From assembly GCF_003390845.1 (NCBI RefSeq), contig NZ_QMEK01000002.1, forward strand, positions 496,001 to 560,000: a stretch of 64,000 nt of DNA. The letters are read 5' to 3'. Shown here piece after piece: positions 17,949-34,807 of the stretch (within the stretch, counting starts at the first letter, position 1; every line of letters begins with the position of its first letter). This DNA is from Tropicimonas sp. IMCC34043. GTDB taxonomy: Bacteria > Pseudomonadota > Alphaproteobacteria > Rhodobacterales > Rhodobacteraceae. Below the pieces are notes generated by a model that worked only from the letters and a program-made list of their open reading frames with translations, was not told the DNA's origin and ran no database searches. The translations under genes and the position numbers were made by a program.

Positions 17949-18003
17949 GAGGCCGTAAGATCGAGCCGTCCCGTCCGCGGCAATGTAGACTATGTGCGTC
18001 CAG

Positions 18004-18577: not shown

Positions 18578-19858
18578 ATGGAGGTAACCGGAATGCTGAC
18601 CGGCGCGAAGCTGCTTGGTCATGTCGGGTTTCCCACGACCGAAGTACTGGGGCCGGACGCAACCGAGGATGAAATCCAGAACCTGATCGACCGGCACAAG
18701 CTGATCTTCATCAAGCCGCTCTTTCGCGGCGGCGTCGGCAAGAAGGGCAAGGCCGGGCTGATCGGCAAGGCCAGCGACCTCAAGACGGCACTGGCCGAGA
18801 AGGAACGGCTCTATTTTGCCGAGCACCGTCATGGCAATGTGATCGCCAAGGCAAATGGCATTACGTTCGAGGCCGGGGTACCGGCAGAGCACGAGGTCTA
18901 TTTCGCGATCACCGATGACAGCCGGTTCCGCGCACCGACGATGACGCTGACCCACCGGGGCGGCGTCGACATCGAGGAACTGGAGAAGCACGAAATCGCC
19001 TCGGTTCCCTTCGATGCGCTGACAGGTCTCAAGGCTTTTGTCGTCGCCAATGCGCTGACGGACATCAACGCGCCGCGCGAGATCATCTCGCCTCTGGTCC
19101 AGCATCTGCCGAAGCTCTGGGAGCTGATGCACCACTACGGCATGACGACGCTGGAGTTGAACCCGATCCGGATGCGTCCGGGGCGCGACGGTCGCCTGAC
19201 ACCGGTGGCGTGCGATTTCAAATGCGGGTTCGACCGTGACGACGCCCGCGTGGCGCGTCTTGGTCTTCCGGACTATCTCTTTGCCTCCGACATCTCGGCC
19301 TTCGAGCAGGAGGTGAACAGGCTGCGGACCCATCAGGGTCAGTCCGACGTGTTTGTCATCAACGACAAGGGCACGATCCTTGCCCCGACCTTCGGCGGCG
19401 GCGCCAACAGCCTCGTCACCGAAGTCCTGGGCGACGCGGCGATCATCTCGTCGGATTTCGGCGGCAACCCGCCCTACGAAAAGATGAAGGCGGTGGCGTC
19501 GATCTGCTACCGGCATTTCCTGGCCCAGACGAACGTGCTGTTCATCATCGGCGGCAAGTCCAACAACACCGACATTCTGGAAACCTTCAGGGGAATGGGC
19601 GACGCCCTGCGCGAGCATTTCTCGGCGCATGGGCCGACGCCGCTTTATGTCGTCGTCGGACGGGGCGGGCCCAACCTCGTGCGGGGCATGGGCAACCTTG
19701 CCGATACGCTCGACAGCCTCGGCCTGCCCTACCGGTTCTTCGGGTTCGACAGCGCCATTTCCGAGGTCGTCAATTACGCCAAGAAGGTCGACCTGTGGAT
19801 GCGCGACGGCGGCAGGGCCGAGATCGCGCGACATCTCGGCATCACCGAAGCGGCCTGA
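18578..19858 (+). CDS. ATP-citrate lyase-like subunit with ATP-grasp and citrate-binding domains
   Basis: The 426-residue protein resembles the small ATP-grasp subunit of ATP-citrate lyase/citryl-CoA synthetase (succinyl-CoA synthetase beta superfamily). The N-terminal ATP-grasp part includes KLIFIKPLFRGGVGKKGKAG and LELNPIRM. The C-terminal half has GGGANSLVTEVLGD, the SSDFGGNPPYEKMKAV segment, LFIIGGKSNNTDILETFRGM and VVVGRGGPN, as in the ACL citrate-binding domain. The start has GGGAGG seven bases upstream. It is 12 bp from the next gene, which carries the CoA-ligase and citrate-synthase-like parts, so the two would form one enzyme. Citrate is the expected substrate, but a related tricarboxylate is possible. 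Confidence 0.8.
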   Translation: MEVTGMLTGAKLLGHVGFPTTEVLGPDATEDEIQNLIDRHKLIFIKPLFRGGVGKKGKAGLIGKASDLKTALAEKERLYFAEHRHGNVIAKANGITFEAGVPAEHEVYFAITDDSRFRAPTMTLTHRGGVDIEELEKHEIASVPFDALTGLKAFVVANALTDINAPREIISPLVQHLPKLWELMHHYGMTTLELNPIRMRPGRDGRLTPVACDFKCGFDRDDARVARLGLPDYLFASDISAFEQEVNRLRTHQGQSDVFVINDKGTILAPTFGGGANSLVTEVLGDAAIISSDFGGNPPYEKMKAVASICYRHFLAQTNVLFIIGGKSNNTDILETFRGMGDALREHFSAHGPTPLYVVVGRGGPNLVRGMGNLADTLDSLGLPYRFFGFDSAISEVVNYAKKVDLWMRDGGRAEIARHLGITEAA

Positions 19859-19870
19859 GGGAGAGAGATC

Positions 19871-22582
19871 ATGCATCGCCAAGGAATCGAGAATTTCCCC
19901 TATTATCTGGGGCTGAACTCGCTCGATCAGATCGCCACGCGCGAGGATCGGGTCTGTGTTCTGAACATCCTGGGGGGCGAATCCCGTCAGGTGACGCCCA
20001 CCAGCCATGCGTTTTCGGGCGGAAACGTGGTGTTCGGCACCTCGCCGGGCCGCGCCGGGCAGAAGCTGAAAACGCCGGTCGGTGACATTCCGGTCTTCAA
20101 CAACGTGCGCGAGGGCGTGAATGCCGGCCACGCCTTCAATGTCGGCGTCGTCTACCTGCCGCCGACCAGCGTGCGCGACGGGGTGGCGGAGCTGATCCGG
20201 GTCAATCCCAAGCTGACCAAGATCGTGATCATCACCGAAAAGATCTCCGTGCACGATGCCCGCGAGGTTCGTGCAATGGGGCAGGCCAACGGTATCGACA
20301 TCATCGGCGGCAACTGCCTTGGCGTGGCCGACAGCTGGAACCGGATCCGGATCGGCGGTGCGCTCGGCGGCGATCGACCGGAGGAATCCCTGCTGAAAGG
20401 GTCGGTGTCGATCTTCTCGAATTCCGGCGGTTTCACGACCACCATCGCGCAGTATCTGTCGACCGAGGGCTGGGGCACCACCACGCTGATTTCTTCGGGC
20501 AAGGACGTCTATATCCATTATGCGGCGCGCGATTTCGCCCATGCCCTGCAGAACGATGCCCGGACCAAGGCCGCCGTGCTCTATGTCGAACCCGGCGGCT
20601 ATTACGAACACGGCGTCACGTTCGGCAAGCCGACGGTCGCCTGTGTCGTCGGGCGCTGGAAGTCCAAACTGACGCGTGCCGTCGGTCATGCGGGTGCGAT
20701 GGCCGGGTCTGGCGATTCTGCCGAGGACAAGGAAAACTGGTTCCTCGAGGCTTTCGGGGTCGACCGCGCCTTCACGCCCGACGATCCGGTCGTGTCAGCC
20801 AAGGGCGCGCTCGTGACCAACATCGCGGACATTCCGGCGGCGCTGACGGCGGTGATGAAGCTGAATGGCGTGGCGCCCGACTTCGCATCGACGGGAAGTC
20901 TGGCGCTGAAGCCGTGGATCGCCAACGATCAGGGGCTGAGGCTGCCGGAAGACCTGGCGATGCCGGTTGTCGAGGCGCCGGAGCCCTACAACGCGCAGAT
21001 CGCGAAGCTCAGCGAACAGGTCGGCGCGGTTATCGCGCGCCAGACCATGAAGGACAAATCCGGCGCCTCGGTGATGGATCCCAATACCCAGGTCACCAGC
21101 GTTCACGGGCATTCGGTACTCGACATGGCATTGGAGCCGCTCGAGGCGATTTTCGCGCTGCCCCTGGTGCATGAAATTGCGACCGCGAACGACCGGGCAA
21201 TGCTCGATGTCGCCGTCGCCGCCGAGGTGAACCTGGTCGGCGATCCGATCCTCGTGGCGACCGATGCGGCACGGGAGGCCGGCAATTCACCCAATACGGT
21301 GATGGCGGCCGCCGCGGCGATCGTCGGGCCGAACCGGGTCCGGCGGGCGCTCGACTGCGCCAGCGCCTTGATCGGGCTCTTTGCGCAGTCGGGGTTGAAG
21401 GACGGCCGGGATGAAGGCTTCGACTTCTCCAACATCCGCATCGACGACGAGACCCGCGCGCTTTTTCTCGCGACCGAGGCGGAAGCCGACGACCCCCGGC
21501 CGGAAGCGATGCTCGCCGCGATCACGGCGCGGGGCGGCAAGTCGGTTTTCCTGAAGTTTCTCGGAACGCTCGGCGGCCGGCTGTCGCGCGACGCAATCCT
21601 GGCCGCGATCTCGACGACGATCGCCTGGGGCCCGCTGATGCGCAAGCGCATATCGCGGCTGACGGCCGAGACGCTGCCCTGGTATCTGCGGCTCTACGGC
21701 GTGATGGTCGGGGCGACGATCCCTGGCGAACACCATCAGCACGGTTCTCTCTACGGCATCCCGCGCGAGGATCGCTTCGGCAAGTGGACCATGGCGGACA
21801 TCTGCTATCTGGCGATGACGGGCAAGAAGCCGTCGAAGGAAGAGACTCTGCCACTGCAGATCCTGATCGGGCTGCTGATTTCCAACGGCCCGGGCTCGAT
21901 CTCGGCGCAGGGCGCCAAGGGGGCGGTGGCCGCGGACGGCCCGCAGACACCGGAACGGGTGCAGATCAACAAGGCGATGATGGGCTTTCTGACCCACTCC
22001 GGCTACAGCCACGGCGGCAACGGGTTCGAGGGGATGGCCTTCCTGCTCGACCAGTTCAAGGATGCCGAACTGCACGACCCGACCGACCAGAACCACGGGC
22101 TTGACCTCAAGACCATGGCCCGCGATTTCGCGCTCAACTACAAGCGCGAGAAGGCGAAAGCGAAGGAGCTTGGCGCCGAGGTCCGCGCCCTTCCGGGCAT
22201 TCATCACCCGGTCTTCAGGGGAAAGGCCGAAAATTTCGACCCGCGCGAGCGGTTTGTCGCGGCGTTCATGGAAAAGCGTGGCGATTACAACGTCTTCCAC
22301 GAATACTACCGCGAAGTCGTCCGCGCCCTCTTCGACGTCGGGGCCAGCCGCTATGTCTTCTGCGTCAACGTCGACGCTATCATTGCGGCACTGCTGCTGG
22401 CGCTTCTGTGGAAGGATTACAAGTCGGGCGCGCTGACGACACGACATCTGGAGAACGCGGCTTTCACCGTGTTCCTGTTCGGGCGGATGATCGGATCGGC
22501 AGCCGAGATCGACGATCATCTCAATCGCGGCCGCAACATGGACACGCGCACGCCCGCCTCCGAGTGTCATTTCGTGGCGTGA
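19871..22582 (+). CDS. ATP-citrate lyase-like large subunit: CoA-ligase domains fused to a citrate synthase-like domain
   Basis: The 903-residue protein has an N-terminal CoA-binding Rossmann domain, then a succinyl-CoA-synthetase alpha-type ligase domain with the phosphohistidine motif GHAGAMAG (H273). From about residue 620 a citrate synthase-like domain follows. That domain keeps the three catalytic positions: a His in YSHGGNGFEG (H714), a His in PGIHHPVFRG (H778/779) and an Asp in VNVDA (D835). This layout is that of the ATP-citrate lyase large subunit, which cleaves citrate plus CoA and ATP to acetyl-CoA and oxaloacetate. It is larger than the usual bacterial AclA (about 610 residues) because an extra region of some 250 residues lies between the ligase and synthase parts. 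Its clustering with tricarballylate and aconitate genes points to catabolic use. Confidence 0.82.
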   Translation: MHRQGIENFPYYLGLNSLDQIATREDRVCVLNILGGESRQVTPTSHAFSGGNVVFGTSPGRAGQKLKTPVGDIPVFNNVREGVNAGHAFNVGVVYLPPTSVRDGVAELIRVNPKLTKIVIITEKISVHDAREVRAMGQANGIDIIGGNCLGVADSWNRIRIGGALGGDRPEESLLKGSVSIFSNSGGFTTTIAQYLSTEGWGTTTLISSGKDVYIHYAARDFAHALQNDARTKAAVLYVEPGGYYEHGVTFGKPTVACVVGRWKSKLTRAVGHAGAMAGSGDSAEDKENWFLEAFGVDRAFTPDDPVVSAKGALVTNIADIPAALTAVMKLNGVAPDFASTGSLALKPWIANDQGLRLPEDLAMPVVEAPEPYNAQIAKLSEQVGAVIARQTMKDKSGASVMDPNTQVTSVHGHSVLDMALEPLEAIFALPLVHEIATANDRAMLDVAVAAEVNLVGDPILVATDAAREAGNSPNTVMAAAAAIVGPNRVRRALDCASALIGLFAQSGLKDGRDEGFDFSNIRIDDETRALFLATEAEADDPRPEAMLAAITARGGKSVFLKFLGTLGGRLSRDAILAAISTTIAWGPLMRKRISRLTAETLPWYLRLYGVMVGATIPGEHHQHGSLYGIPREDRFGKWTMADICYLAMTGKKPSKEETLPLQILIGLLISNGPGSISAQGAKGAVAADGPQTPERVQINKAMMGFLTHSGYSHGGNGFEGMAFLLDQFKDAELHDPTDQNHGLDLKTMARDFALNYKREKAKAKELGAEVRALPGIHHPVFRGKAENFDPRERFVAAFMEKRGDYNVFHEYYREVVRALFDVGASRYVFCVNVDAIIAALLLALLWKDYKSGALTTRHLENAAFTVFLFGRMIGSAAEIDDHLNRGRNMDTRTPASECHFVA

Positions 22583-22584
22583 CC

Positions 22585-22980
22585 ATGGGGGAGTATCACG
22601 AGCCCCCCAAGGATCAGCCGTCGATCCGCACGATCGCCATGCCGGCCGACACCAACCCTGCCGGTGATATCTTCGGGGGCTGGCTGATGTCCCAGATGGA
22701 CCTGGCGGCGGGGAATCTCGCCGCCCGGGTTGCCGGGGGCCGCAGCGCAACCATCGCCGTCGATGCCATGAAGTTCCACCGGCCGGTAAAGGTGGGGGAC
22801 GAAGTCACGCTCTTTGCCAATCTGGTGAAGGTCGGCCGCACGTCCATGCACATTCACGTCGAGGCCTGGCGCCGCCATCGCTTCGGGGAGCGTTCGGAAC
22901 GGGTGACCGAGGCGACGTTCATCTTCGTGGCACTGGACGCAGAGGGTCGACCGAGGGAACTGCCGGTCAACCGCCCTTGA
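22585..22980 (+). CDS. Acyl-CoA thioesterase, YciA-like hotdog protein
   Basis: The 131-residue hotdog-fold thioesterase begins MGEYHEPPKDQPSIRTIAMP and contains NPAGDIFGGWLMSQMDLAAG, with the conserved Asn and Asp of the YciA/acyl-CoA hydrolase family, and VGDEVTLFANLVKVGRTSM. It hydrolyses short to medium acyl-CoAs. It follows the lyase large-subunit gene by two bases, so it is probably co-translated. It may release CoA from a pathway intermediate or act as a safety valve. Confidence 0.88.
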   Translation: MGEYHEPPKDQPSIRTIAMPADTNPAGDIFGGWLMSQMDLAAGNLAARVAGGRSATIAVDAMKFHRPVKVGDEVTLFANLVKVGRTSMHIHVEAWRRHRFGERSERVTEATFIFVALDAEGRPRELPVNRP

Positions 22981-23007: not shown

Positions 23008-24087
23008 TCACGCCGATGGCGGCAAATCTCGCAAGCCTTCAGCCACGGCCTGGGCGAAGCCACGTGTATCAAGGTTTCCGCCCAGGTCCCTGGTTCGCGT
23101 GGACGGGTTGGCGATCGTCGTGTCGAGCGCATGCAGGATCGCTCGACCGGCATGCGCCAGATCCGCGCGCCGACGGTTTGCACCCAGCCATTCCAGAAGC
23201 ATGCCGCTCGATCCGATCAACGACGCGGGGTTGGCGATGCCTTTGCCGGCAATGTCCGGCGCCGAGCCGTGCTGGGCCTGGGCCATCGCCATACCGTCGC
23301 CGGCGTTGAGTGACGCGGCGAGCCCGAGACTTCCCGACAGCTCTGACGCGAGGTCCGACAGGATATCGCCGAACATATTGGTCGTGCAGACCACGTCGAA
23401 CGCCTCCGGACGCCGGACAAGGTGCGCACAGGCCGCGTCGACGATGAGTTCGTCATACACGACCTCGGGGTGCCGCGCTGCGACCTCCCGGCAGCAGGAC
23501 AGGAACAGCCCGTCCGTCACCTTGAGCACGTTCTGCTTGTGCACCGCAGTCACCTTCTTGCGACGCTGCATCGCCCCGGCGAAGGCCGCTTCCGCGATCC
23601 GCATCGACGCGTGGCGGGTGATGCGCCGCATGGCCAACGCCACATCGGCCGTGACCTGCAGCTCGCCCGAGCCGGTGTGCATGCAGCGATCCGCGTAGAA
23701 ACCCTCGGTGTTCTCCCGGTAGATCACCAGATCGAACGCGGCACCGGTGGCCGATTTCAATCCCTTGCGCGTCGCCGCCGGCCGGATATTCGCATAGAGA
23801 TCGAGGCGCTTGCGCAGCTCGCCCGAAGGGTTGAGCCCGCCCTCTTCACGGGCCGGATAGTCCAGGTGCGAGACAGGCCCGAGGATCAGGGCATCGGCCT
23901 CCCTGGCCTGGGCAAAGGCGGCGTCGGGAAGGGTCGAGCCTTGGTTCCGCAAGGCGGCAAAGCCGATCTCGATCTCGGAGAAGGCGAAACCGAGGTCGAA
24001 GTGGCGGTCGGCGGCGTCCAGAACCAACCGGGTCGCAGCGGAAATCTCGGGCCCGATTCCGTCTCCGGGCATGAAGGCGACTTTCAT
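23008..24087 (-). CDS. Isocitrate/isopropylmalate dehydrogenase family protein
   Basis: The 359-residue beta-decarboxylating dehydrogenase begins MKVAFMPGDGIGPEI. It has the substrate loop IYRENTEGFYADR, the KQNVLKVTDGLF segment, the metal site TTNMFGDILSDLASEL and the cofactor region HGSAPDIAGKGIANP. The IYRENTEG pattern is closer to NAD-isocitrate and homoisocitrate dehydrogenases than to LeuB. It would oxidatively decarboxylate a 2-hydroxy-3-carboxy acid such as isocitrate or a homologue. It is the last gene of the GntR-tcuA-tcuB operon. Confidence 0.88.
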   Translation of the reverse strand: MKVAFMPGDGIGPEISAATRLVLDAADRHFDLGFAFSEIEIGFAALRNQGSTLPDAAFAQAREADALILGPVSHLDYPAREEGGLNPSGELRKRLDLYANIRPAATRKGLKSATGAAFDLVIYRENTEGFYADRCMHTGSGELQVTADVALAMRRITRHASMRIAEAAFAGAMQRRKKVTAVHKQNVLKVTDGLFLSCCREVAARHPEVVYDELIVDAACAHLVRRPEAFDVVCTTNMFGDILSDLASELSGSLGLAASLNAGDGMAMAQAQHGSAPDIAGKGIANPASLIGSSGMLLEWLGANRRRADLAHAGRAILHALDTTIANPSTRTRDLGGNLDTRGFAQAVAEGLRDLPPSA

Positions 24088-24127: not shown

Positions 24128-25192
24128 CTAGGCGCGGCGCTTCTGCTCTTCGACTATGAGGGTCGCAAAGCGGTAGAACCCGTGGATCATCTTGGTGAAG
24201 GGCAGAAGCAGGAAGAAGGCCACGATGCATCCGAGGTGGATCGCCAGCAGGCTCGGAACCGCAGCGGTGCCGGTTGCGGCGTAGAGCGCAAGTCCGGTGG
24301 CGCCGGTGGCACCCAGCAGCAGGACAAACGCCATCTCGCCGCCCCAGACACGCGCCGCACCGAGCGCCGGATCGGCCTGGGTCTTGAGCCACGCAAGGCC
24401 CGCGCAGCCGACGGTCAGCAGGATGCCGCCCGGTACGCCCAACAGTTTCGGCAGGCTGAACAGCCCATAGGGCGCGGGGATGGCAAAGGCATAGTGCAGG
24501 ATGGTTCCCGACACCGTTGCCGCGAAGCACAGCAGGAAGCCGTACATCACCGCCTGGTGGAACCAGCGCCGCCGGTCGGAATATCGGTCTTCCTTTTCGA
24601 AGTTGCAGCCCTGGCCCTGACCGCCATTGAGGTTTTTCATCCGCGCCGCCGAGGCGCCGGCGGCCAAAACGTCCCGCCAGCGAAGTCTCTCGCCCCCGAT
24701 CTCGCGCCAATAGGCACGAAGACTGACCGCAACCGAGGCGAGCGGCAGAAGAAATGCGGGCAGGAACAGCGCGAGGATCGTCCCGTGTGCAAGATAGGCG
24801 TAGAAACCGCTCCCGCTCTCGGGACGGAAGGCTTGAAGCAACCCGAAGAGAAGCACGAAACCCGCCAGCAGAGCCGCCGCAATGGCAACGCCGCTTTCAT
24901 TGAACAGCCGGGCCAGCGGGCGCGGCCAGGCATGACGCTCCCAGCTTTCCTGCCGCACCTCGGCGAGGGCGGCGGGGAAGTTCAGCGCGAACTCGTGCGG
25001 CTCGGTGTATTGGCAGGAATAATAGCAGCCCCGGCAGTTGTGGCAGAGGTTCGCGAGATGCGTTATATCGCCATCGGCGAAGACCTTGCTGCGGGTAAGC
25101 GCTGGAAAGACCGAACAGAAGCCCTCGCAATAGCGGCAAGCGTTGCAGATTTCGGTCTGGCGGCGGGCTTCCGCGATGAGCTCAGTTGACAT
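24128..25192 (-). CDS. tcuB: Tricarballylate utilisation protein TcuB (Fe-S/membrane electron-transfer protein)
   Basis: The 354-residue protein has two four-cysteine clusters near the N-terminus, C16-x2-C19-x2-C22-x3-C26 and C50-x2-C53-x2-C56-x3-C60. About six membrane helices with histidines follow, matching TcuB/CitB. It reoxidises the flavin of TcuA and passes electrons to the membrane quinone pool. Its start overlaps the tcuA stop by 11 bases, so the two products are made together. Confidence 0.93.
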   Translation of the reverse strand: MSTELIAEARRQTEICNACRYCEGFCSVFPALTRSKVFADGDITHLANLCHNCRGCYYSCQYTEPHEFALNFPAALAEVRQESWERHAWPRPLARLFNESGVAIAAALLAGFVLLFGLLQAFRPESGSGFYAYLAHGTILALFLPAFLLPLASVAVSLRAYWREIGGERLRWRDVLAAGASAARMKNLNGGQGQGCNFEKEDRYSDRRRWFHQAVMYGFLLCFAATVSGTILHYAFAIPAPYGLFSLPKLLGVPGGILLTVGCAGLAWLKTQADPALGAARVWGGEMAFVLLLGATGATGLALYAATGTAAVPSLLAIHLGCIVAFFLLLPFTKMIHGFYRFATLIVEEQKRRA

Positions 25193-26579
25193 GGGCTGCG
25201 GCCTCCCGGCCCGCGATGCGTCCGAAGACTGTTCCTATGGTCATGCCGAATCCGGCGAGATAGCCTTGGCCGAGGATCGAGCCTGCCATGATCTCGCCCG
25301 CCGCCCAGAGGTTGCGGACCGGGCCTTGGGCGGTATGCACCTGCGCCCGGTCCGAGACCTTCAGGCCCAGATAGGTGAAGGTGACGCCGGGGCGAAGCTG
25401 GTAGCCGTAGTAGGGCGGCGTATCGAGCGGCCGCGCCCAGTTGGTCTTGGCCGGGGCAAGTCCCTCGGTCGCGAGCCCGTCAAGCTCGGTTGGATGAAAC
25501 CGGCCCGGACGGCAGGCGGCGTTGAACTCGGCGACGGTCGCGGCCAGCCTGGCGCCGTCGAGGCCCATCTGGGTGCCCAGTTCCTCGATGGTGTCGGCGC
25601 GGTTCGGCGGAAAGACCGAGGGCATGAAAAGGTCGATGGACTTGGCGTCGATGATGGCATAGCCGACCTGATCGGGCTGCCCCGCGACCAGCCGGCCCCA
25701 GATCGCATAGCGCTTGGGCCAGACATCCTCGCCCTCGTCATAGAACCGCTCGGCATCGCGGTTGACGACAATGGAGAATGGCACGCAGTCGAGCCGGGTA
25801 ACGATGCCGCCGTCGAATTTCGGCGCCCGCCCGTCGATGGCGACGGCGTGGCACTGGGTCGGGTCGCCGACGCTTTCGCAGCCCTGGTCGAGCATGTCGC
25901 GCAGCACCACGCCTCGGTTGTAGGGCGTGCCCCGTATCAGGAAGTTCGCCGCCGCCGGGCCCCAGGCACGGGTCAGCCATTCGAGGTTCGACTGGAACCC
26001 GCCCGAGGCGAGAACCGCCGCCCGCGCCTCGATACGCACGGTTTCACCACCGATCCGGGCCTTCAGATACCTGAAGCTGTCGCCCTCGAGATGCACATGG
26101 GTCACTTCAGCGTCGTAGGCGACCGTGACGCCCAGATCTTCGGCGGTGTTGTAATAGGCGTTCACCAGTGCCTTGCCGCCGCCGAGGAAGAAGGCATTGG
26201 TACGCGACAGCGACAACGTGCCGGACAGCGAGGGCTGGAACCGCACGCCATGCGCCTCCATCCACGGCAGGCATTCCTCGGAAGACCGGATCGCGAGACG
26301 CGCCAGCGGCTCGTCGGTCTTGCCCTTGGTGACAAGCATGAGGTCGTCGAAATATTCGTCCTCCCCATAGCTGTTCGTCAGCACCGAAAGCGGACCCTGG
26401 TGCATGCATCGGAAGTTGCGCGTATGGCGGCTGTTGCCGCCGCGATAGGGTTTGGGCGCCGATTCGAGGATCAGGACACGCGCGCCGGTTTCAGCGGCAG
26501 TGATCGCGGCGCAAAGGGCGGCATTGCCGCCGCCGACGACGACGATGTCCCAGGGGCCGTTCAGGTATGCCGATGTCAT
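25182..26579 (-). CDS. tcuA: FAD-dependent tricarballylate dehydrogenase TcuA
   Basis: The 465-residue flavoprotein of the fumarate reductase/succinate dehydrogenase FAD family has VVVGGGNAALCAAITAAE near the N-terminus and the ARAAVLASGGFQSN and AAGEIMAGSILGQGYLAGFGMTIG motifs. Its length and partner TcuB identify the tricarballylate dehydrogenase, which converts tricarballylate to cis-aconitate. It lies 15 bases after the GntR gene on the same strand. Confidence 0.93.
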   Translation of the reverse strand: MTSAYLNGPWDIVVVGGGNAALCAAITAAETGARVLILESAPKPYRGGNSRHTRNFRCMHQGPLSVLTNSYGEDEYFDDLMLVTKGKTDEPLARLAIRSSEECLPWMEAHGVRFQPSLSGTLSLSRTNAFFLGGGKALVNAYYNTAEDLGVTVAYDAEVTHVHLEGDSFRYLKARIGGETVRIEARAAVLASGGFQSNLEWLTRAWGPAAANFLIRGTPYNRGVVLRDMLDQGCESVGDPTQCHAVAIDGRAPKFDGGIVTRLDCVPFSIVVNRDAERFYDEGEDVWPKRYAIWGRLVAGQPDQVGYAIIDAKSIDLFMPSVFPPNRADTIEELGTQMGLDGARLAATVAEFNAACRPGRFHPTELDGLATEGLAPAKTNWARPLDTPPYYGYQLRPGVTFTYLGLKVSDRAQVHTAQGPVRNLWAAGEIMAGSILGQGYLAGFGMTIGTVFGRIAGREAAAHVN

Positions 26580-26594: not shown

Positions 26595-27269
26595 CTAGCT
26601 TGCGTCGATGGGGCGTTCGCGGCAGCGTAATACTTTGAGCCGGACCCGGTGCGCCGCCTCGATATGCGCGCGCATCAGGGCCTCGGCCCGGGGTCCGTCG
26701 CCGTCCTTGAGCGCGCCCAGCACATCGGCGTGCTCCTTGACGGCCTGACTTGCCCGGTCCGCCTCTACCAGCGTCGACGGCCCGATGATGAGCAGCGCCT
26801 TCTGCAGCGCGTTGACCGACTTGACCAGGTAGCGATTCTTGGCCGCGTCGAGCAGTGTCATGTGGAACTGGCGGTTGAGCAGATAGGCCGCACCCGCATC
26901 CTGCGCCATGGCAAGCTCGTCATTCAGCGCGACCAGCTCGTCGAGCTCCAGATCGGATGCGGCCCGGGCGGCAAGGCGGGCGGCGGTGCCCTCCAGCACG
27001 GCCCGCATTTCGTAGAGCTCCATCACCTCCGAGTAATCCAGCACCCGGATCGTGGCACCCTGGCGCGGTACATGGGCGACGATGCCATCGGCCTCCAGCA
27101 GCCGGATCGCCTCGCGCACAGGCGTTCGGCTGATCCCGAACCGCTCCGCCAGCTCGGTCTCGCGCAGCCGCGCGCCCGGAAGCAGATCGCCACGGCTGAT
27201 CTCTTCCAGCAGGCGGCGATAGGCGCTGTTGCCCTGCGGGCCATCCTCGAAGTCGGTTGGGTCAGTCAC
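26595..27269 (-). CDS. GntR family regulator (FadR/FCD subgroup)
   Basis: The 224-residue regulator has an N-terminal winged helix (AYRRLLEEISRGDLLPGARLRETELAERFGISRTPVREAIRLLEADG) and a C-terminal FCD ligand-binding domain. The domain's metal-binding residues lie around NRQFHMTLLDAAKN and KEHADVLGALKDGD. The start is taken as GTG at 27269, in line with the family N-terminus; there is no suitable ATG, and the frame runs open upstream through the AbrB gene. It heads the tcu operon and is divergent from the AbrB carrier, so it probably controls both. A tricarboxylate effector is likely. Confidence 0.87.
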   Translation of the reverse strand: MTDPTDFEDGPQGNSAYRRLLEEISRGDLLPGARLRETELAERFGISRTPVREAIRLLEADGIVAHVPRQGATIRVLDYSEVMELYEMRAVLEGTAARLAARAASDLELDELVALNDELAMAQDAGAAYLLNRQFHMTLLDAAKNRYLVKSVNALQKALLIIGPSTLVEADRASQAVKEHADVLGALKDGDGPRAEALMRAHIEAAHRVRLKVLRCRERPIDAS

Positions 27270-27342: not shown

Positions 27343-28386
27343 ATGACCCCGCTCCAGCGACTTCCGCCACGTATCCTGACCGTGATGATTGCGGCGTTGG
27401 GTGTGGCAACCTTCGCGATTGCGGGCTTGCCTCTGCCCTTTCTGTTCGGGCCGATGGCCGCCTGCCTGATCGCCGCGCTGTTCGGCGCGCCTCTGAAGGG
27501 ACTGGGCCAGATCTCGGTCGCGGCGCGGACGATCCTTGGCGTCGCCGTCGGCGCGTCGATAACCCCGGACCTCTTGCACCAGGTGCCCCTCATGGCGGCC
27601 TCGGTGGCGCTGATCCCGGTCTATATCGCCCTGATCGCCCTCATCGGCGTCCCGTTCTTCAACCGCTTATGCGGCTTCGATCCAGTGACCTCGTTCTATG
27701 CCGCGATGCCGGGCGGATTGCAGGACATGGTCATCTTCGGCGAGGCAGCGGGGGCCAATGTGCGCACGCTGTCGTTGGTCCATGCCACCCGGATCCTGAT
27801 CATCGTCACCGTCGCGCCCATCGTGCTGACCCAGTTCTACGGCGTGTCCCTGACCAAGCCGATCGGCGCCCCGGCGGCGGCGATCCCGCTGAAGGAACTG
27901 GCGCTGATGGCGGTCGCGGCGCTCGTCGGCTGGAAGGGCGGCGAGCGCATCGGGCTCTTCGGCGCCTCGATCCTCGGGCCGATGATGGTGGCGGCGGCGT
28001 TCTCGCTCGCCGGGTGGATCCACATGCGCCCGCCGAAAGAGGCGATCCTGATGGCGCAGTTCTTCATCGGCATGGCGATCGGGGTCTTCTATGTGGGCGT
28101 GACCCTGCGCGAGCTTCGGCAGGTCGTGGTGTCCGGCGTCGCCTTCGTCCTGATCCTGGCAGCGCTCGCCGCGGCCTTTACCGAGATCGTCACGCTTGCC
28201 GGCTTCGCGGGTCCGGTCGAGGCGTTCCTGTCCTATGCGCCCGGCGGGCAGGCCGAGATGACGGTGCTTGCCATCGTCACGGGCGCGGACCTCGGCTTTG
28301 TCATCACCCACCACCTGACCCGAATCGTCCTGGTCATCGCCGGCGCGCCGATAGCCGCACGACTGCTCGGGGTGCGGAAGCGTTAG
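27343..28386 (+). CDS. AbrB family membrane transporter (PF05145)
   Basis: The 347-residue protein has about ten hydrophobic helices in two repeats. It shows the duplicated membrane signature of the AbrB/AmoA-like family: GLPLPFLFGPMAACLIAALFG with AMPGGLQDMVIFGEAAGA in the first half, and GASILGPMMVAAAFSLAG with YAPGGQAEMTVLAIVTGADLGFVITHHL in the second. Members are poorly characterised and often sit beside carboxylate catabolic genes. Here it is divergent from the GntR-tcu operon, so it may carry a pathway acid in or out. It overlaps the convergent dehydrogenase gene by four bases. Confidence 0.82.
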   Translation: MTPLQRLPPRILTVMIAALGVATFAIAGLPLPFLFGPMAACLIAALFGAPLKGLGQISVAARTILGVAVGASITPDLLHQVPLMAASVALIPVYIALIALIGVPFFNRLCGFDPVTSFYAAMPGGLQDMVIFGEAAGANVRTLSLVHATRILIIVTVAPIVLTQFYGVSLTKPIGAPAAAIPLKELALMAVAALVGWKGGERIGLFGASILGPMMVAAAFSLAGWIHMRPPKEAILMAQFFIGMAIGVFYVGVTLRELRQVVVSGVAFVLILAALAAAFTEIVTLAGFAGPVEAFLSYAPGGQAEMTVLAIVTGADLGFVITHHLTRIVLVIAGAPIAARLLGVRKR

Positions 28387-29357
28387 CCCTTCCAGACCTC
28401 GGGATTGATCATGTGAACGGGTGCGCCTGCCGCGTAGGCATTGATCTGGTCGTAGATGTCGGCGAACTGGAGATCCAGTTCGTCCTCGGTCACATAGCCT
28501 ATGTGGGGTGTGGCGATGACGTTGGGATGCGAGGCAAGCGGGTCGTCCGGATCCGTGAGCGGTTCGGTGTCGAACACGTCCAAGGCGGCCATGCCGGGGC
28601 GTCCGGCGTTCAACGCTTCCACAAGCGCGCCAGGCTGGACGAGGCCCGCCCGCGAGGTATTCACGAAGACCGACCCGGGCGCCATCGCCGCGAAATCGGC
28701 AGGCGTGATAATCCCGCGTGTCACCGGTTTCAGGCGGACATGCAGGCTGACCACGTCGCACGCGGCAAAGAACGCCTCGCGGCTTTCGGCGACGCGCTCG
28801 CCATCCGCCGAGGCCCGGGCGCGTCCGTCTTCGGACGCCCACCACAGCACTTCCATTCCGAACGCTCGCGCATACCCCGCGACCGCCCGGGCGATGCGAC
28901 CATAGCCGTAAAGCCCGAGCATACGCCCCCGCAGCGACTTGCCGACGCCCATCTGCCAGCGCCCTGCGCGCAAGCTGGCCATTTGCTGCGGAATCTGGCG
29001 CATGGCCGCAAGGATCAGCCCCCAGGTCAGTTCGGCGGCGCCATGGGAGGGTGTGTCGGAGTGCATGTTGGAGCACAGCAGCACGCCGTTCGCGGTGCAG
29101 GCCGGAACATCGACGTGCGGGTAGACGCTGCGCTGCGAGACGAGCCGCAGCTTCGGCAGGTTTTCCAGCAGCCCGGCGGTGACCGGCGTGCGCTCGCGGA
29201 AAAGGACCAGAACCTCAGCCTCCTGCAGCCGTTCGGACAGCACGTCTTCGTCAACGACATGGTCGGTCCAGATCGTCACATCATGTCCGTCGAGCCGCGC
29301 GAAGGAGGGCAAGCCGCGCAGCGTATCGAACCAGTCGTCGAGAATATGAACCTTCAT
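28383..29357 (-). CDS. D-2-hydroxyacid dehydrogenase family protein
   Basis: The 324-residue NAD(P)-dependent dehydrogenase has a Rossmann core LGLYGYGRIARAVAGYARAFGMEV, the catalytic-region motifs FVNTSRAGLVQPGALVEAL and ALDVFDTEPL, and the C-terminal catalytic His in TPHIGYVTEDELD. It would interconvert a 2-oxo acid and a D-2-hydroxy acid. It is the last gene of the tctC-tctAB-prpF operon. The actual substrate is unknown. Confidence 0.9.
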   Translation of the reverse strand: MKVHILDDWFDTLRGLPSFARLDGHDVTIWTDHVVDEDVLSERLQEAEVLVLFRERTPVTAGLLENLPKLRLVSQRSVYPHVDVPACTANGVLLCSNMHSDTPSHGAAELTWGLILAAMRQIPQQMASLRAGRWQMGVGKSLRGRMLGLYGYGRIARAVAGYARAFGMEVLWWASEDGRARASADGERVAESREAFFAACDVVSLHVRLKPVTRGIITPADFAAMAPGSVFVNTSRAGLVQPGALVEALNAGRPGMAALDVFDTEPLTDPDDPLASHPNVIATPHIGYVTEDELDLQFADIYDQINAYAAGAPVHMINPEVWKG

Positions 29358-29624: not shown

Positions 29625-30716
29625 CTAAAGCCCTTTCCAGATGCTCCCCGGCACGAATACCTCGCCACGCGCAAGCAATCTGGCGGTGCGCAGCAATCCG
29701 GCGGATCGCAGCTGAAAGCCGTCCGCGCCGTTCTCATAATCGACCGTCACGTCGATCGTGCCGGAGGGATGTTCGATAACCACCAGCGCCGGAACGCCTT
29801 CGGGCGGTGTGAACAGACCTTCCGCGACCGTCCCCGGCGTCAGGACGCAGGAGGCGAGGCATTGCGACCCCGTCACGGCCATCGTCGGATGGCAACTCTT
29901 GGGCATGAAGTAGCGCGCCGCAATCGTCCCCCCTTCCCGGGGTTCGGCCAGCAGCCCGAACTTCGGCGTCACCGAGCCTGAGACGTCCCCCATGCCCATC
30001 CGCTTGCCCGCTTCGATCCGGATGGGCTCCATCCGCGCATAGAAATCGCGGTTGGCGTCAATCTCGGCGGCGGTCTCATGACCGGTCAGGCCAAAATCGG
30101 CAGCACGGGCGATCACCATCGGCATGGCGACATCCATGCAGGTGACCTCGATTCCGTCGATCTCGTCGCGGACCGAGCCGGTCGGCAGCAAGGCGCCGGT
30201 GCTTGAGCCCACGACATCCATGAAGTTCAGATAGATCGGGGCCGCCGTTCCAGGGACGCCGTCGATCGCGGCGGACCCGTCGTAGCGGACCTTGCCGCCG
30301 GGCGTCTCCACCACGGCCTCGATCCGGGCGCCGGTGTTCACCGACAGCACCCGGATATGCGTCCTGTCGCCGGCGGCTTCGACCAGTCCCATCTCCAGCG
30401 CGGCGGGGCCGACGCCGGACAGGATGTTGCCGCAGGTCGGCTTGAAGTCCACCGTCCGGTCCTCGACCGAGACCTGCGCGAAGAAGTAGTCCACATCCGC
30501 GTCCGGATCGGTGGAGCGCGACAGCATTGCGACCTTGGTCGTCACTGCCGCCCCGCCGCCGATGCCATCTATATTGAGCGGATGGCCGGAGCCGATAACC
30601 GCCAGCAACACCTTGGCCAGCGTCTCGTGGTCTTCGGGCAGATCGGCGCGTTTGAAGTAAGGCCCGCGCGACGTACCGCCGCGCAGGAAGTGGAAAGGGA
30701 TTGCAGTCTGTGTCAT
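29625..30716 (-). CDS. PrpF family isomerase (4-oxalomesaconate tautomerase/aconitate isomerase-like)
   Basis: The 363-residue protein begins MTQTAIPFHFLRGGTSRGPYF, the diagnostic PrpF start (RGGTSRG). It has the NIDGIGGGAAVTTKVAML and PTCGNILSGVGPAALE motifs (C95) and the SCHPTMAVTGSQCLA segment of the diaminopimelate-epimerase-like fold. PrpF proteins isomerise tricarboxylates such as trans-aconitate or 2-methylaconitate. With tcuA and the Tct transporter, aconitate isomerisation is the most likely role. The start at 30716 is preferred to one 12 codons upstream, which would overlap the tctAB gene. Confidence 0.88.
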   Translation of the reverse strand: MTQTAIPFHFLRGGTSRGPYFKRADLPEDHETLAKVLLAVIGSGHPLNIDGIGGGAAVTTKVAMLSRSTDPDADVDYFFAQVSVEDRTVDFKPTCGNILSGVGPAALEMGLVEAAGDRTHIRVLSVNTGARIEAVVETPGGKVRYDGSAAIDGVPGTAAPIYLNFMDVVGSSTGALLPTGSVRDEIDGIEVTCMDVAMPMVIARAADFGLTGHETAAEIDANRDFYARMEPIRIEAGKRMGMGDVSGSVTPKFGLLAEPREGGTIAARYFMPKSCHPTMAVTGSQCLASCVLTPGTVAEGLFTPPEGVPALVVIEHPSGTIDVTVDYENGADGFQLRSAGLLRTARLLARGEVFVPGSIWKGL

Positions 30717-30726
30717 CGCATTGCCC

Positions 30727-32706
30727 TCAGCGGATCGGCCAGGGCAGATCATAGGCGCTCTGCAGCCAGCCGGACGGGAAGTTCAGGCTCAGCATGTAGG
30801 CCAGGCCCAGGATGAAGCCTGCCGCACAGGCCGTCATCACCACCGTCGTCCTCCAGGACGCCTTTGCGCGCAGCTGCAGGAAGGCGATGAAGAAGACGAT
30901 CATTGCGATGTAGAAGCCGACCAGGGACGTCGCTGCAACCAGCGCGGCGATCCAGGCGGGACCCGTCCAGAACCAGCTGTTTCCTTCGCTTCCGACGTGA
31001 TCGCCGACGATCTCGTAGTCGAAGAAGGCCGGATGGTCCTCATGGCCGTGCCACAGGTGGATCAAAAGGATAGCGCCGAACAGCACGCCCACGACGGCGA
31101 CACCGAGCGGGAACACCGAGCCGAGGAAGGAGTGTTGCGACGCATCCCAGAGAGCCAGGCCAAAGAAGACGACTGTCGCGATGCCAAAGGCGATCTGGAT
31201 GTCTCGGCTCGCGTGCGAGGTCACGACGGCATCACCCGTGGGGCCAGTGTCGTCGACCCGGTTCTTCAGGCCGAAGTAGATCGATATCAGCGTCATGGCA
31301 CCGATGATCAGCACGCCCGGCCGGATCAGGAAGCCCCAGCCGTTGAACTGCAGCGCCTGGTAGAAGAAGGTCTCGGCCTGCGGGGCGAGGACGAAACCGA
31401 TGAGCAGCGCGGGACGCGGCCAGCCGAAGCGCTTCATCAGGATACCGACGAGGCCGACGGCCAGCAGCGCCACCAGGTCCGCGAGATCGCGGGTGGCCTG
31501 GAAGGCGGCGAAGCAGATCAGCGCGATCATGCAGGGCGCCAGCAGCTGGAACGGAATCGCGGTCAGCCGCGAGATCGGCCTGGCCAGCGCCAGACAGATG
31601 CCCGCGCCCATGATGTTGGCCAGCGCCAGCGACCATATGATCGAATAGGTGACATTGAGGTCCGGGCCGACCATCGACGGGCCCGGCTCGATCCCGATCA
31701 GGACCATGCCGCCAAGGAACACAGCCATGGAACCGGAACCGGGAATGCCGAAGAGCATCGTCGGCAGCAGCGCACCACCCTGCATCGCGTTGTTGGCGCT
31801 CTCCGGCGCGACGACGCCGCGCGGATCGCCCTTGCCGAACTGCGACGTGTCCTTTGCCGTTTGCACTGCATGTCCATAGGCGATCCAGTCGACGACCGAG
31901 CCTCCGAGGCCGGGGATCGCACCGATCATGCAGCCGAAGCCCGAACAGCGGATCGACAGGAAGATGTTGCTCCACCAGTCGCGCAGGCCCAGCAGCCAGC
32001 CGGACCCGAGCACGTTGCCCTCGGCGATGGTGCTGTTCTTGCGCAGAAGATCCGAGATCTCCGGAATGGCGAACAGTCCCAGGCCGATGATGACCAGAGG
32101 GATGCCGTCATAGAGATATTCGCTGTTGAAGATCATGCGGAATTCGCCGGTTGCGGGGGCCGCACCGATCGAGCCGATCAGCAAGCCGACAGCACAGGCA
32201 GCAAGGCCTTTGGGCAGGCTGCGACCGGCAAGGACCGCGACCATCGACAGACCGAAAAGCGCGAGCATGAACAGCTCGGCCGAGCCGAACATAAGGATCA
32301 GCGGCCGCGCGATCAGCACGAAGCCGGTGAGGATGATCGCCCCGACGATGCCGCCGAAGAGCGACGAGATGAACGCGGCCGAAAGGGCCCGCGCGGCCTG
32401 GCCCTGCTTGGCCATCGGAAAGCCGTCGAGCACGGTGGCCTGGCTGGCGCTCGATCCGGGTATCCCCATCAGGACGGACGAGAAGGTGTCGGAGGTCGGG
32501 ATCACGGCGACCAGCCCGATGAGCATCCCCAGCGCCGAGACCGGCTCCATGCCGTAGAGGAAGGGAACCAGCAGCGAGAGACCGGCAATTCCGCCCAGAC
32601 CGGGGATGACCCCGATGATCAGGCCGACGGAAACCCCGAGCAGCATGTAGGCCATGTGTTGAAACGTGAAGAGGGTGACGAGCGCAGTTAGTAAGGTGTC
32701 CATCAT
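30727..32706 (-). CDS. Tripartite tricarboxylate transporter, TctA-TctB fusion
   Basis: The 659-residue membrane protein has residues 1 to about 490 of TctA type: GVIPGLGGIAGLSLLVPFLYGM, MGIPGSSASQATVLDGFPMAKQGQAARAL, then a second GAIPGLGGSVVDWIAYGHA and LFGIPGSGSMAVFLGGM. After a linker (about 490-520) four further hydrophobic helices form a TctB-like domain. Separate tctA and tctB genes are the rule, so this is a fusion. It would import tri- or dicarboxylates with TctC using an ion gradient. It lies between tctC and prpF. Confidence 0.9.
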   Translation of the reverse strand: MMDTLLTALVTLFTFQHMAYMLLGVSVGLIIGVIPGLGGIAGLSLLVPFLYGMEPVSALGMLIGLVAVIPTSDTFSSVLMGIPGSSASQATVLDGFPMAKQGQAARALSAAFISSLFGGIVGAIILTGFVLIARPLILMFGSAELFMLALFGLSMVAVLAGRSLPKGLAACAVGLLIGSIGAAPATGEFRMIFNSEYLYDGIPLVIIGLGLFAIPEISDLLRKNSTIAEGNVLGSGWLLGLRDWWSNIFLSIRCSGFGCMIGAIPGLGGSVVDWIAYGHAVQTAKDTSQFGKGDPRGVVAPESANNAMQGGALLPTMLFGIPGSGSMAVFLGGMVLIGIEPGPSMVGPDLNVTYSIIWSLALANIMGAGICLALARPISRLTAIPFQLLAPCMIALICFAAFQATRDLADLVALLAVGLVGILMKRFGWPRPALLIGFVLAPQAETFFYQALQFNGWGFLIRPGVLIIGAMTLISIYFGLKNRVDDTGPTGDAVVTSHASRDIQIAFGIATVVFFGLALWDASQHSFLGSVFPLGVAVVGVLFGAILLIHLWHGHEDHPAFFDYEIVGDHVGSEGNSWFWTGPAWIAALVAATSLVGFYIAMIVFFIAFLQLRAKASWRTTVVMTACAAGFILGLAYMLSLNFPSGWLQSAYDLPWPIR

Positions 32707-32845: not shown

Positions 32846-33958
32846 CTAGTCGCCTTCACCCAGCTTGACGCCGTAGTCGGCCGCCAGCGTGTCCACAACC
32901 TGTTTGCGCAGTTCAGGGGTGATCGTCGTGCCCTTCTGGAAGAGCGTGTCGGCGGCCGGACCGGTCACCTGCTCGTATGTGCCGAGCACGGATTCCTTGT
33001 TGTCCTGATACACCGGGTCCGCCTTCATCGCCTCGAAAGCCGCCTGATAGGCGTCGACGATCTCCTGCGGCGTGCCCTTGGGCAGGAACACCATCTTCTG
33101 CGCCGGGAATCCCGCCGTGAAGAACGCGAAGTAGGCATCGTATTCCGGACCTTCGGGCGCCTTGCCGGTCACCATCTCGTAGGCTTCGCCGAAATGGGGA
33201 AGGTCGGGGAACGTCGGGTCGCGCACCAGATTGCCGTCCGCGTCCAGAGCACCCCAGCTGAACAGCGGGACCGCGGTACCGGCTTCGACCAGGGGCTCCA
33301 CGTTCTTGATGTAGGCGGAAGAGGTCTGGTAGTCGATGTTGGTTTCGCCGCGCTCAAACGCGAGGCGACCATCGCCGCGACCCTTGAAGCCGAAGACGTG
33401 CTGCACGTCGAGGCCCATCAACTTGAAGCCAAGCAGCGGAACGAGATCGAGCGAAGTTGCGCCCTGGCTTGCATAGATCAGTTTCTGACCGGCCAGCTTG
33501 GCGATTTCGTCCGGGTTCGTCACCCCGGTCGAGGGCGACGTATAGACGACTCCGCCGGTCGGCGAGGCCATCGCGATCTCCCAGTCGGCATAGTCGTAGC
33601 GCACGCGCGGGTCGCCCAGAAGATAGGGGAACTGCGTGGAGCCGGACGTGCCGAGGATGGTCAGCCCATCGGGCTTGGCGCGCGCGGCAAAGAGGTTGCT
33701 GCCCTTGGTCGAACCGCCCCCGGGCTCGTTCACGACAACCACGGTCGGCTCGCCGGGAAGATATTTGCTCAGGAGCGGCGCGTTGAACCGCGCCCAGGTG
33801 TCCGACCCGCCGCCGGCGGAGAACGGAATGATCCATTCGATGGTCTTGCCCTCGAACGACACTTCGGCAGCGGCCGGGCCGGCAAGCCCGAACGCCGCCG
33901 CCGCTCCCAGAGCCAGACCGATGGCGCCCCGTCGCGTGGTCGTGAATAGTTCTGTCAT
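32846..33958 (-). CDS. Tripartite tricarboxylate transporter substrate-binding protein TctC
   Basis: The 370-residue periplasmic protein has a twin-arginine-like signal (TTTRRGAIGLALGAAAAFGLAGPAAA). The Bug/TctC fold follows, with EWIIPFSAGGGSDTWARF, VVVNEPGGGSTKGSNLFAARAKPDG and the C-terminal PKGTPQEIVDAYQAAFEAM. It captures the carboxylate for TctAB. It heads the operon and is divergent from the two-component pair that probably regulates it. Confidence 0.92.
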   Translation of the reverse strand: MTELFTTTRRGAIGLALGAAAAFGLAGPAAAEVSFEGKTIEWIIPFSAGGGSDTWARFNAPLLSKYLPGEPTVVVVNEPGGGSTKGSNLFAARAKPDGLTILGTSGSTQFPYLLGDPRVRYDYADWEIAMASPTGGVVYTSPSTGVTNPDEIAKLAGQKLIYASQGATSLDLVPLLGFKLMGLDVQHVFGFKGRGDGRLAFERGETNIDYQTSSAYIKNVEPLVEAGTAVPLFSWGALDADGNLVRDPTFPDLPHFGEAYEMVTGKAPEGPEYDAYFAFFTAGFPAQKMVFLPKGTPQEIVDAYQAAFEAMKADPVYQDNKESVLGTYEQVTGPAADTLFQKGTTITPELRKQVVDTLAADYGVKLGEGD

Positions 33959-34135: not shown

Positions 34136-34807
34136 ATGCGGATCGTCCTGATCGAGGACAACGAGAGACTGGCCAAGGGAATCGAGAATTCCCTTCGCGA
34201 TCAAGGTCATGCTGTCGACTGGCTCTCGGACGGCGCCGAAGCGAGCCGGTTTCTCGAAGCCGAGGGCGCGGACATTGCCATCATCGACGTCAACCTCCCC
34301 GGCCTCAGCGGTTTTGAGATGGTGCGCGCGCTGCGCAAACGTGGCAGCACGATCCCCGTGATTATGCTCACGGCCCGCGCCGAACTCGATGACCGGGTGG
34401 AAGGGCTGGATTCGGGCGCCGATGACTACCTCGTCAAACCCTTTGAAATGGCTGAGCTTACCGCGCGGATCAGGGCGCTGTCCCGGCGCAGGTCGGATAT
34501 CCAGACGGGTGCACAGGATGTCGGCCAATTGCGCTTCGACCGTATCGCGCGAACCGTGACTGGTCCGGACGGCGCGGTCGATTTGCCTCGGCGCGAGCTT
34601 GCCCTGTTTGAATGCCTCGTGGAACACAGTGGCCGGATAGTGTCGAAGGACCGCATTTCCGACACGCTTTACGGGGTGGGATCCGAGGTAGAGGCAAATG
34701 CCGTCGAACTGCTGGTATCGAGATTGCGGCGCAAGCTGACCGGCACAGGTGTCACGATCCGCACGGCGCGCGGATTGGGATACCTTCTCGACGATGGCGC
34801 CAAATGA
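34136..34807 (+). CDS. tctD: Response regulator, OmpR family (TctD-like)
   Basis: The 223-residue protein has a receiver domain with acidic pocket E7-D8, phosphoacceptor D51 (IIDVNLPG), T/S in MLTARAELDD, and K in DDYLVKPFE. An OmpR winged helix follows (LPRRELALFECLVEHSGRIVSKDRISDTLYG, then EANAVELLVSRLRRKL and GLGYLLDD). Position next to tctC and the kinase indicates control of tricarboxylate uptake. Its stop overlaps the kinase start (ATGA). Confidence 0.9.
   Translation: MRIVLIEDNERLAKGIENSLRDQGHAVDWLSDGAEASRFLEAEGADIAIIDVNLPGLSGFEMVRALRKRGSTIPVIMLTARAELDDRVEGLDSGADDYLVKPFEMAELTARIRALSRRRSDIQTGAQDVGQLRFDRIARTVTGPDGAVDLPRRELALFECLVEHSGRIVSKDRISDTLYGVGSEVEANAVELLVSRLRRKLTGTGVTIRTARGLGYLLDDGAK

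Follow-up and report, generated by a model that had tools for sequence, protein, structure and literature searches.

The window, a stretch of 64,000 nucleotides from Tropicimonas sp. IMCC34043, carries on its forward strand two adjacent genes, aclS (18578..19858) and aclL (19871..22582), which encode a predicted ATP-dependent citrate-cleaving enzyme of the type II ATP citrate lyase (ACL) kind and do not represent a new family. It seems likely from the domains and surroundings of the pair that this enzyme, a citryl-CoA synthetase fused to a citryl-CoA lyase, functions in heterotrophic citrate use; we infer its activity, substrate, direction and every flux. The family is known and, in the excerpts of the literature cited below, barely characterised. 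New here are a sister clade with repeated linkage to Tct importers and a proposed duplication of the lyase module. Literature searches confined to an open-licence library listed no paper whose title or abstract concerned a duplicated lyase in type II ACL or the occurrence of ACL alongside Tct transporters.

When ATP citrate lyase turns up in a bacterium, the usual conclusion is that the organism fixes CO2. A branch linked to the import of citrate would render that conclusion unsafe, and would give bacteria a direct route from citrate to acetyl-CoA.

Family identity and active-site residues

The small subunit (426 aa) is of the citryl-CoA synthetase large-subunit type, with an ATP-grasp domain (Pfam ATP-grasp_2, 50.2 bits, cut-off 29.5) and a citrate-binding domain (Citrate_bind, 1.1e-13, 51.6 bits, cut-off 26.8). 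Following it after 12 bp, the large subunit (903 aa) combines parts resembling the citryl-CoA synthetase small subunit, a degenerate lyase and a citryl-CoA lyase. Its CoA-ligase part (residues 1-330, 19871..20860 on the + strand, boundary by eye) matches Succ_CoA_lig and CoA_binding above the Pfam cut-offs and contains the phosphohistidine H273, encoded at 20687-20689. The C-terminal part, of the citryl-CoA lyase or citrate-synthase fold, spans residues 601-903 (21671..22579, +), with codons on the same strand for H714 (22010-22012), H779 (22205-22207) and D835 (22373-22375). Residues 633-894 matched the citryl-CoA lyase model NF004869 weakly (8e-9, 35.2 bits, cut-off 212), and neither subunit was named by any NCBIfam model above cut-off. 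An initial annotation, made from the sequence alone, had described both open reading frames, their spacing, and the ATP-grasp and citrate-binding domains of the small subunit, all of which were borne out.

Among solved structures, the best profile matches of both subunits were to the citryl-CoA synthetase of Hydrogenobacter (small subunit, 6hxq_B, 3.4e-31; large subunit, 6hxq_A, 1.3e-40), with ATP citrate lyases behind (6hxi_A, 5.7e-19, and 6hxj_A, 8.5e-8, for the small subunit; 6hxj_B, 6.1e-13, for the large one). The structure predicted for the C-terminal 534 residues had a predicted local distance difference test score (pLDDT) of 73.7 and a predicted template modelling score of 0.76, and a fold search with this model returned only citrate or methylcitrate synthases and citryl-CoA lyase modules among the best 50 of 225 matches (best E 7.7e-5). 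Its match to the citryl-CoA lyase 6hxp had a probability of 1.00 (TMt 0.66, TMq 0.34) at a root-mean-square deviation (rmsd) of 4.9, and its fit to synthases was loose (rmsd 8-15). In a profile comparison with hhalign the C-terminal part matched citryl-CoA lyases at 96.6% (5.5e-10), aligning H714 with the HGG motif, H779 with GH and D835 with NVD; the lyase alignment held nine sequences chosen by model NF004869, one of which scored above the cut-off of that model. Against a citrate synthase alignment just 40 columns were aligned (73.2%). Searching the sequences of solved structures with the C-terminal profile returned one unrelated chance match and nothing else. Predicting the whole chain from 14 close sequences gave a poor model (pLDDT 57.6), whose fold search serves as support only.

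These domain, profile and fold matches agree with the ACL-like identity first proposed for the pair, and the scores exclude a place among ordinary succinyl-CoA synthetase or 2-methylcitrate synthase families. Succinyl-CoA synthetase and malate-CoA ligase were rejected on NCBIfam scores of 52.9 bits (cut-off 370) and 25.3 bits (cut-off 604) for the small subunit and 120.9 bits (cut-off 336) for the large one. A stand-alone citrate or 2-methylcitrate synthase was rejected as well, with no Pfam family found in the C-terminal 534 aa of the window's large subunit; PF00285 (Citrate_synt) was matched by 16 of the 26 family members scanned at E up to 0.1, the best at 1.5e-10. Type I AclAB, for which the highest similarity to AclAB and a large chain of about 600 aa would be expected, disagrees with the pair in length and profile scores. 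What we found was a small subunit like the large subunit of citryl-CoA synthetase (CCS), with a citrate-binding domain, and a fused ligase and lyase chain of about 900 aa, as in type II ACL. The separate branch suggested by the initial annotation appears, on profile scores, to lie apart from ordinary AclAB, but it is not new and probably belongs with the type II ACL postulated for Magnetococcus and tubeworm symbionts.

In the excerpts cited, the Magnetococcus marinus MC-1 pair Mmc1_3638/3639 appears as a postulated type II ACL (PMC6783814), and type II genes have been published from tubeworm symbionts (PMC3522073) and Thioflavicoccus (PMC6315080). The same excerpts call the genes of known members postulated or putative (PMC6783814, PMC3522073), and type II ACL has been placed near the pairing of CCS with citryl-CoA lyase, CCS-CCL (PMC5459899). 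The window's pair resembles the enzyme of M. marinus MC-1 and the tubeworm symbionts in having subunits of about 420 and 900 aa, the same active-site residues and the same lyase-like extra region. It differs in lying by Tct, TcuAB and PrpF genes, whereas the Magnetococcus pair lies between apparent lon and nuo genes, and in having S328 and H622 where Magnetococcus-like sequences have A and Q. Hydrogenobacter CcsA/CcsB with Ccl has the same three functional modules and the closest solved structures, but in the window the ligase small subunit and the lyase are fused in one chain, which also contains the extra region. Module order, the phosphohistidine and the citrate contact residues (those of ACLY as we take them to be) are shared with type I AclAB of Chlorobium limicola (6hxj) and with human ACLY; similarity to type I is, however, far weaker, as the 6hxj_B and 6hxq_A values above indicate, and the chain there is shorter. 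The ligase half is like succinyl-CoA synthetase and malate-CoA ligase, yet it scores far under their family cut-offs, and the pair adds citrate-binding and lyase modules.

All 42 large subunits compared (24 from the window's clade and 18 Magnetococcus-like) have H273, H714, H779 and D835. The initial annotation had reported the phosphohistidine and intact catalytic residues, which holds for these four but not for H778, named there as an alternative to its neighbour: residue 778 is H in 19/24 and N in 5/24 of the window's clade, and N in all 18 Magnetococcus-like sequences. Because H778 is not conserved, H779 is likely the catalytic residue. Residues N346, T348 and R379 of human ACLY, which we take to be its citrate contacts, map by alignment to N329, T331 and R362 of the small subunit; these are invariant in 40/40 sequences. 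Changes separating the two clades were sought at 19 small-subunit and 31 large-subunit positions. The clean differences were small-subunit residue 328 (S in 23/23 of the window's set, A in 17/17 Magnetococcus-like) and large-subunit residue 622 (H in 24/24, Q in 18/18), and 18 of the 19 small-subunit positions were the same in both sets. The changed substrate that had been suggested is thus not supported, as the presumed citrate contacts are invariant and S328 and H622 are the sole clean differences between clades among the positions checked.

The additional region of the large subunit

The initial annotation had noted about 250 additional residues in the large subunit, and these are real, the chain being 903 aa long compared with 617 aa for Chlorobium chain 6hxj_B. 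A degenerate second lyase copy accounts for them better than an insert that changes the substrate. Residues 385-600 (21023..21670, +; boundaries by eye) are probably a degenerate, inactive second citryl-CoA-lyase copy present in both clades. Aligned over 26 sequences, this region matched citryl-CoA lyases in profile-profile comparison at 95.9% (5.1e-9, 190 columns), scored 63.4 over 187 columns (95.8%) in a second comparison with them, and matched the C-terminal lyase copy at 95.1% (score 60.3). Scores from 200 column shuffles reached at most 25.8 against the lyases and 23.3 against the C-terminal copy, reversed-profile controls gave 12.8 and 12.9 against the former and 19.1 against the latter, and 24 unrelated families scored 21.9 or less. 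Profiles built from each clade alone (13 rows each) still matched the lyases, with scores of 48.3 (90.2%) and 51.9 (92.7%). In our reading of the alignment, the column of the HGG histidine is occupied by R489 and the GH motif is lost; in the window's set, column 489 is R in 23/24 and S in 1/24, and the 18 Magnetococcus-like sequences have E, V, R, M, L or T there, never H.

The region might instead be an unrelated helical linker domain with no lyase copy in it, and some results fit that explanation. Searched as single sequences, the region barely resembled a lyase: two citryl-CoA lyase models were matched, by one member of the 26 each (0.023, 0.097), among other matches at chance level. Compared with a citrate synthase profile it gave no match (0.1%), where citryl-CoA lyases match that profile at 99.3%, and the column of the NVD aspartate, D574 in the window, is D in 24/24 of the window's set but in just 2/18 Magnetococcus-like sequences. 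We nevertheless consider a linker unlikely, given how far the lyase match exceeds its shuffled, reversed and unrelated-family controls, its persistence in each clade alone, the match to the C-terminal copy, and the order of helices in the C-terminal predicted model, which as we read it agrees with a lyase copy.

In human ACLY, according to the cited part of PMC10115795, a four-module lyase core is built from four chains. With a dead second lyase copy in the large subunit, two chains could build such a core. As a tentative model, which we regard as a serious possibility, type II ACL would have arisen by internal duplication of the lyase module, leaving one dead and one live copy per chain, so that a pair of chains would form a pseudo-tetrameric core in which two sites work and two are structural, a2b2 in place of a4b4; heterotrophs would then have adopted a mobile branch of it, which would serve them aerobically in place of citrate lyase and yield acetyl-CoA from imported citrate. 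If true, duplication within the chain would add a new stage to the history that connects citrate lyases with citrate synthase.

Relatives and their distribution

A scan of species genomes found 16 loci, at 61-82% identity, in Paracoccaceae, Rhizobiaceae, Halomonas, Variovorax, Marinobacterium and others, and a plasmid scan found 133 matching records, 19 of which align over 80% or more of the query, with an identity of 60-82%. Within the window's family the whole protein was present in 3 of 198 genomes and any match in 28, the remaining 25 being ligase-only; within its class the C-terminal profile was found in 3 of 385. A sample of the phylum gave matches in 39 of 398 genomes, including the window's own, and 20 of the other 38 were read further, with 18 entering the large-subunit counts and 17 the small-subunit counts and the tree. 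Identity between these Magnetococcus-like sequences and the window was 53-57% for the large subunit (n=18) and 65-72% for the small subunit (n=17). The tree parted 17 Magnetococcus-like rows from 23 rows of the window's set at one branch with a Shimodaira-Hasegawa-like approximate likelihood ratio of 100 (quick search, no bootstrap); it held no named type I or tubeworm-symbiont sequence, and separation from type I was judged from profile scores. On these sequences, the window's clade is a sparse, often plasmid-borne sister clade of the Magnetococcus-like set, found in alpha-, beta- and gammaproteobacteria.

Residue counts and tree omitted L011 and L015 (contig ends), L013 (both genes broken) and L081 and L088 (cut), and the tree further omitted L082 and L020, for which no complete small subunit was available; alignment A4 does include pieces of L011 and L013. 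One genome of the window's family supplied L018, which does not differ from L006 (Pseudothioclava, Paracoccaceae); this makes Paracoccaceae the probable family of the host, and the two stand as identical rows in the residue counts. Another genome of the family, G130, encodes the large subunit twice, once at full length and once in a copy beginning at a contig end. In the metagenome-assembled genome with L013 (8680-12666), frame changes disrupt the two acl genes, through decay or assembly error.

In genome G203, which we take to be Magnetococcus marinus MC-1, the acl pair (L090) is flanked by clpP-clpX-lon and nuo genes, as judged from the protein sequences. Gene calls on 17 Magnetococcus-like loci recovered the clpP-clpX-lon block in 8 and a nuo block in 7. 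Published type II primers encode the peptides VAKEEWF and NGFEAIA; at the same alignment columns L090 has LAKEEWF and NGFEAIA (1 and 0 mismatches of 7) and the window EDKENWF and NGFEGMA (3 and 2). The window's matches are weak taken alone, being equalled by 182 and 32 of 1000 shuffled window proteins, and the second peptide was absent from L009 among five proteins checked.

Gene neighbourhoods and proposed role

Linkage to importers of the Tct type recurs among the relatives. We compared the window with 14 of the 16 species-genome loci using a simple gene caller, which missed some thioesterases later found by tblastn (the match in L004 covers 63/133 residues). Tct importer genes lie near the acl pair in 10 of these 15 loci, with TctC in 10, TctA in 9, PrpF in 7, a separate TctB in 6, a response regulator in 6, a kinase in 5, TcuA and TcuB in 3 each, and malic enzyme and thiolase in 2 each. 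In L004, L008, L014 and L017 the order prpF-tctC-tctB-tctA-aclS-aclL runs on one strand, with gaps of 67-88 bp between TctA and aclS. Plasmid p2 of Gemmobacter fulvus has almost the same module as the window, with the acl pair, thioesterase, TcuB, TcuA, GntR, tautomerase, Tct genes, regulator and kinase. Of eight plasmid loci, one (L074) carries no annotation, and Tct genes are listed in two of the other seven (L068, L072). The large subunit is easily missed, because it is named merely hypothetical protein or CoA-binding protein in all seven annotated plasmid records. One of these plasmids, pUSP3 of Aminobacter sp. MSH1 (L069), is typed as conjugative and has a gene for a phospholipase of the cyclic-oligonucleotide-based antiphage signalling system (CBASS) and a nucleotidyltransferase downstream of the acl pair.

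In the proposed pathway ATP would phosphorylate H273, the phosphate would pass to citrate bound by N329, T331 and R362 of the small subunit, and CoA would displace it to give citryl-CoA, which the C-terminal module (H714, H779, D835) would cleave to acetyl-CoA and oxaloacetate. Citrate could come from Tct import, or from tricarballylate or aconitate via TcuAB, the PrpF-type isomerase and aconitase. Acetyl-CoA may enter biosynthesis or storage, some relatives having adjoining thiolase and acetoacetyl-CoA reductase genes (in L009, L016 and L072 perhaps for polymer storage), oxaloacetate would proceed to malate and pyruvate, and the thioesterase probably vents surplus acyl-CoA.

A number of observations weigh against heterotrophic citrate use. 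The initial annotation had set the pair inside a tricarboxylate catabolic cluster, and such a cluster is supported by TcuA, TcuB and the tautomerase, each with a model scoring over cut-off, and by TctA (406.8 bits), but in the window the acl and thioesterase genes are convergent with the tcu/tct block and share no transcription unit with it. No Tct gene was called in 5 of the 15 loci (L003, L009, L010, L013, L016), and none is listed in 5 of the 7 annotated plasmid loci (L069, L070, L071, L073, L075); the three from Burkholderiaceae (L071, L073, L075) have a major facilitator superfamily transporter, a binding protein and DctA. As for cleavage itself, N672, invariant in 42/42, occupies an alignment column in which 8 of 9 citryl-CoA-lyase-like rows have the histidine of a DHG or EHG motif. 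In the cited part of PMC10115795 the lyase-fold domain of human ACLY is argued to be allosteric rather than catalytic, so conserved motif residues alone do not prove a cleavage site.

Two of the alternatives concern the direction and the substrate of the reaction. The pair might, as in Magnetococcus, take part in a reverse Krebs cycle that fixes CO2, and lie beside the tricarboxylate cluster by chance; it shares a family with the Magnetococcus-like enzymes, and reductive use is conceivable given a pyruvate:acceptor oxidoreductase-like set in the host (L154, C5:234500-243500), which falls below the curated cut-offs of its named equivalog models. The remainder of the host genome points elsewhere. 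A 2-oxoglutarate:ferredoxin oxidoreductase, the companion expected in a reverse Krebs cycle, was not found there above cut-off: 2-oxoglutarate synthase TIGR03710 gave five matches, none above cut-off, and the oxidoreductase-like set scored 70.4 bits on the 2-oxoglutarate synthase alpha model NF007206 (cut-off 579). The genome has a separate citrate synthase (one Citrate_synt match) and two RuBisCO_large matches, one of them in a cluster read as rbcL, rbcS, cbbX and Calvin-cycle genes. With Tct genes near so many of the relatives, and the patchy spread in class and family, we consider reverse Krebs use highly improbable, in keeping with the catabolic setting first assigned to the pair. That the substrate is a citrate homologue (2-methylcitrate, homocitrate, citramalate) or an alkylated citrate also strikes us as quite improbable; the nearby PrpF-type isomerase, isopropylmalate/isohomocitrate-dehydrogenase-like gene and thioesterase would suit it, as would S328 and H622, but nearly all small-subunit positions checked agree between the sets, and Tct and TcuAB suggest citrate, aconitate and tricarballylate.

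The ATP citrate lyase of fat-making eukaryotes works in a citrate-malate-pyruvate shuttle, and the enzyme here might likewise draw on internal citrate, mainly feeding polyhydroxybutyrate storage and reducing power, in place of catabolizing imported citrate. L016 has genes for a thioesterase, a malic-enzyme-like protein, thiolase, acetoacetyl-CoA reductase and pyruvate dehydrogenase E1 behind aclL, L009 has malic-enzyme-like (1062, cut-off 1178) and thiolase genes, and Microvirga (L072) has phbB and thiolase together with Tct genes. Such genes are, however, less common than the Tct linkage, with malic enzyme and thiolase in just 2 of the 15 loci plus phbB and thiolase in L072, and we think a mainly storage-directed role rather unlikely. 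Storage and the use of imported citrate are not mutually exclusive. Apart from these questions, the second and weaker RuBisCO_large match in the host (L156, C5:39500-45000; 242.8 bits), away from the RuBisCO cluster, is perhaps a RuBisCO-like protein.

In the window, an acyl-CoA thioesterase gene (22579..22980, +) overlaps the end of the large-subunit gene by 4 bp. YciA is the model that it matches best, though below cut-off (128.5 bits, cut-off 162). The initial annotation had seen it as coupled behind the pair and suited to an unusual acyl-CoA; the coupling is real but not universal, because 8 of 15 loci have the gene immediately after that of the large subunit, and the sub-cut-off YciA match is uninformative on the acyl-CoA. 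Beyond it, on the - strand, are an isocitrate/isopropylmalate-dehydrogenase-like gene (23008..24087; TIGR02088 312 bits, under the cut-off of 409.8, and no NCBIfam model above cut-off), the tricarballylate utilisation 4Fe-4S protein TcuB (24128..25192; TIGR02484 342.9 bits, cut-off 246.6; NF011607 360.1 bits, under the cut-off of 524), the FAD tricarballylate dehydrogenase TcuA, whose product we take to be cis-aconitate (25182..26579; NF006130 686.9 bits, cut-off 369), and a GntR/FCD regulator (26595..27269). An AbrB-family membrane protein (27385..28386, +) precedes four more genes on the - strand: a D-2-hydroxyacid dehydrogenase family protein (28383..29357), a PrpF family or 4-oxalomesaconate tautomerase-like isomerase (29625..30716; NF033377 486.1 bits, cut-off 440), TctA with fused TctB, the membrane part of a tripartite tricarboxylate transporter (30727..32706; TctA 406.8 bits), and a TctC-type substrate-binding receptor with a weak match (32846..33958; 33.9 bits, cut-off 27). 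A response regulator (34136-34807) and sensor kinase (34804-36192), together spanning 34136..36192 on the + strand, were recognised by Pfam domains and called TctDE-like from their position by TctC. Upstream, the window has a tRNA-Ser (tga) at 11639-11728 and, just before the acl pair, a recombinase-like open reading frame (17881-18423, by eye); the scar of a mobile island between the two is possible.

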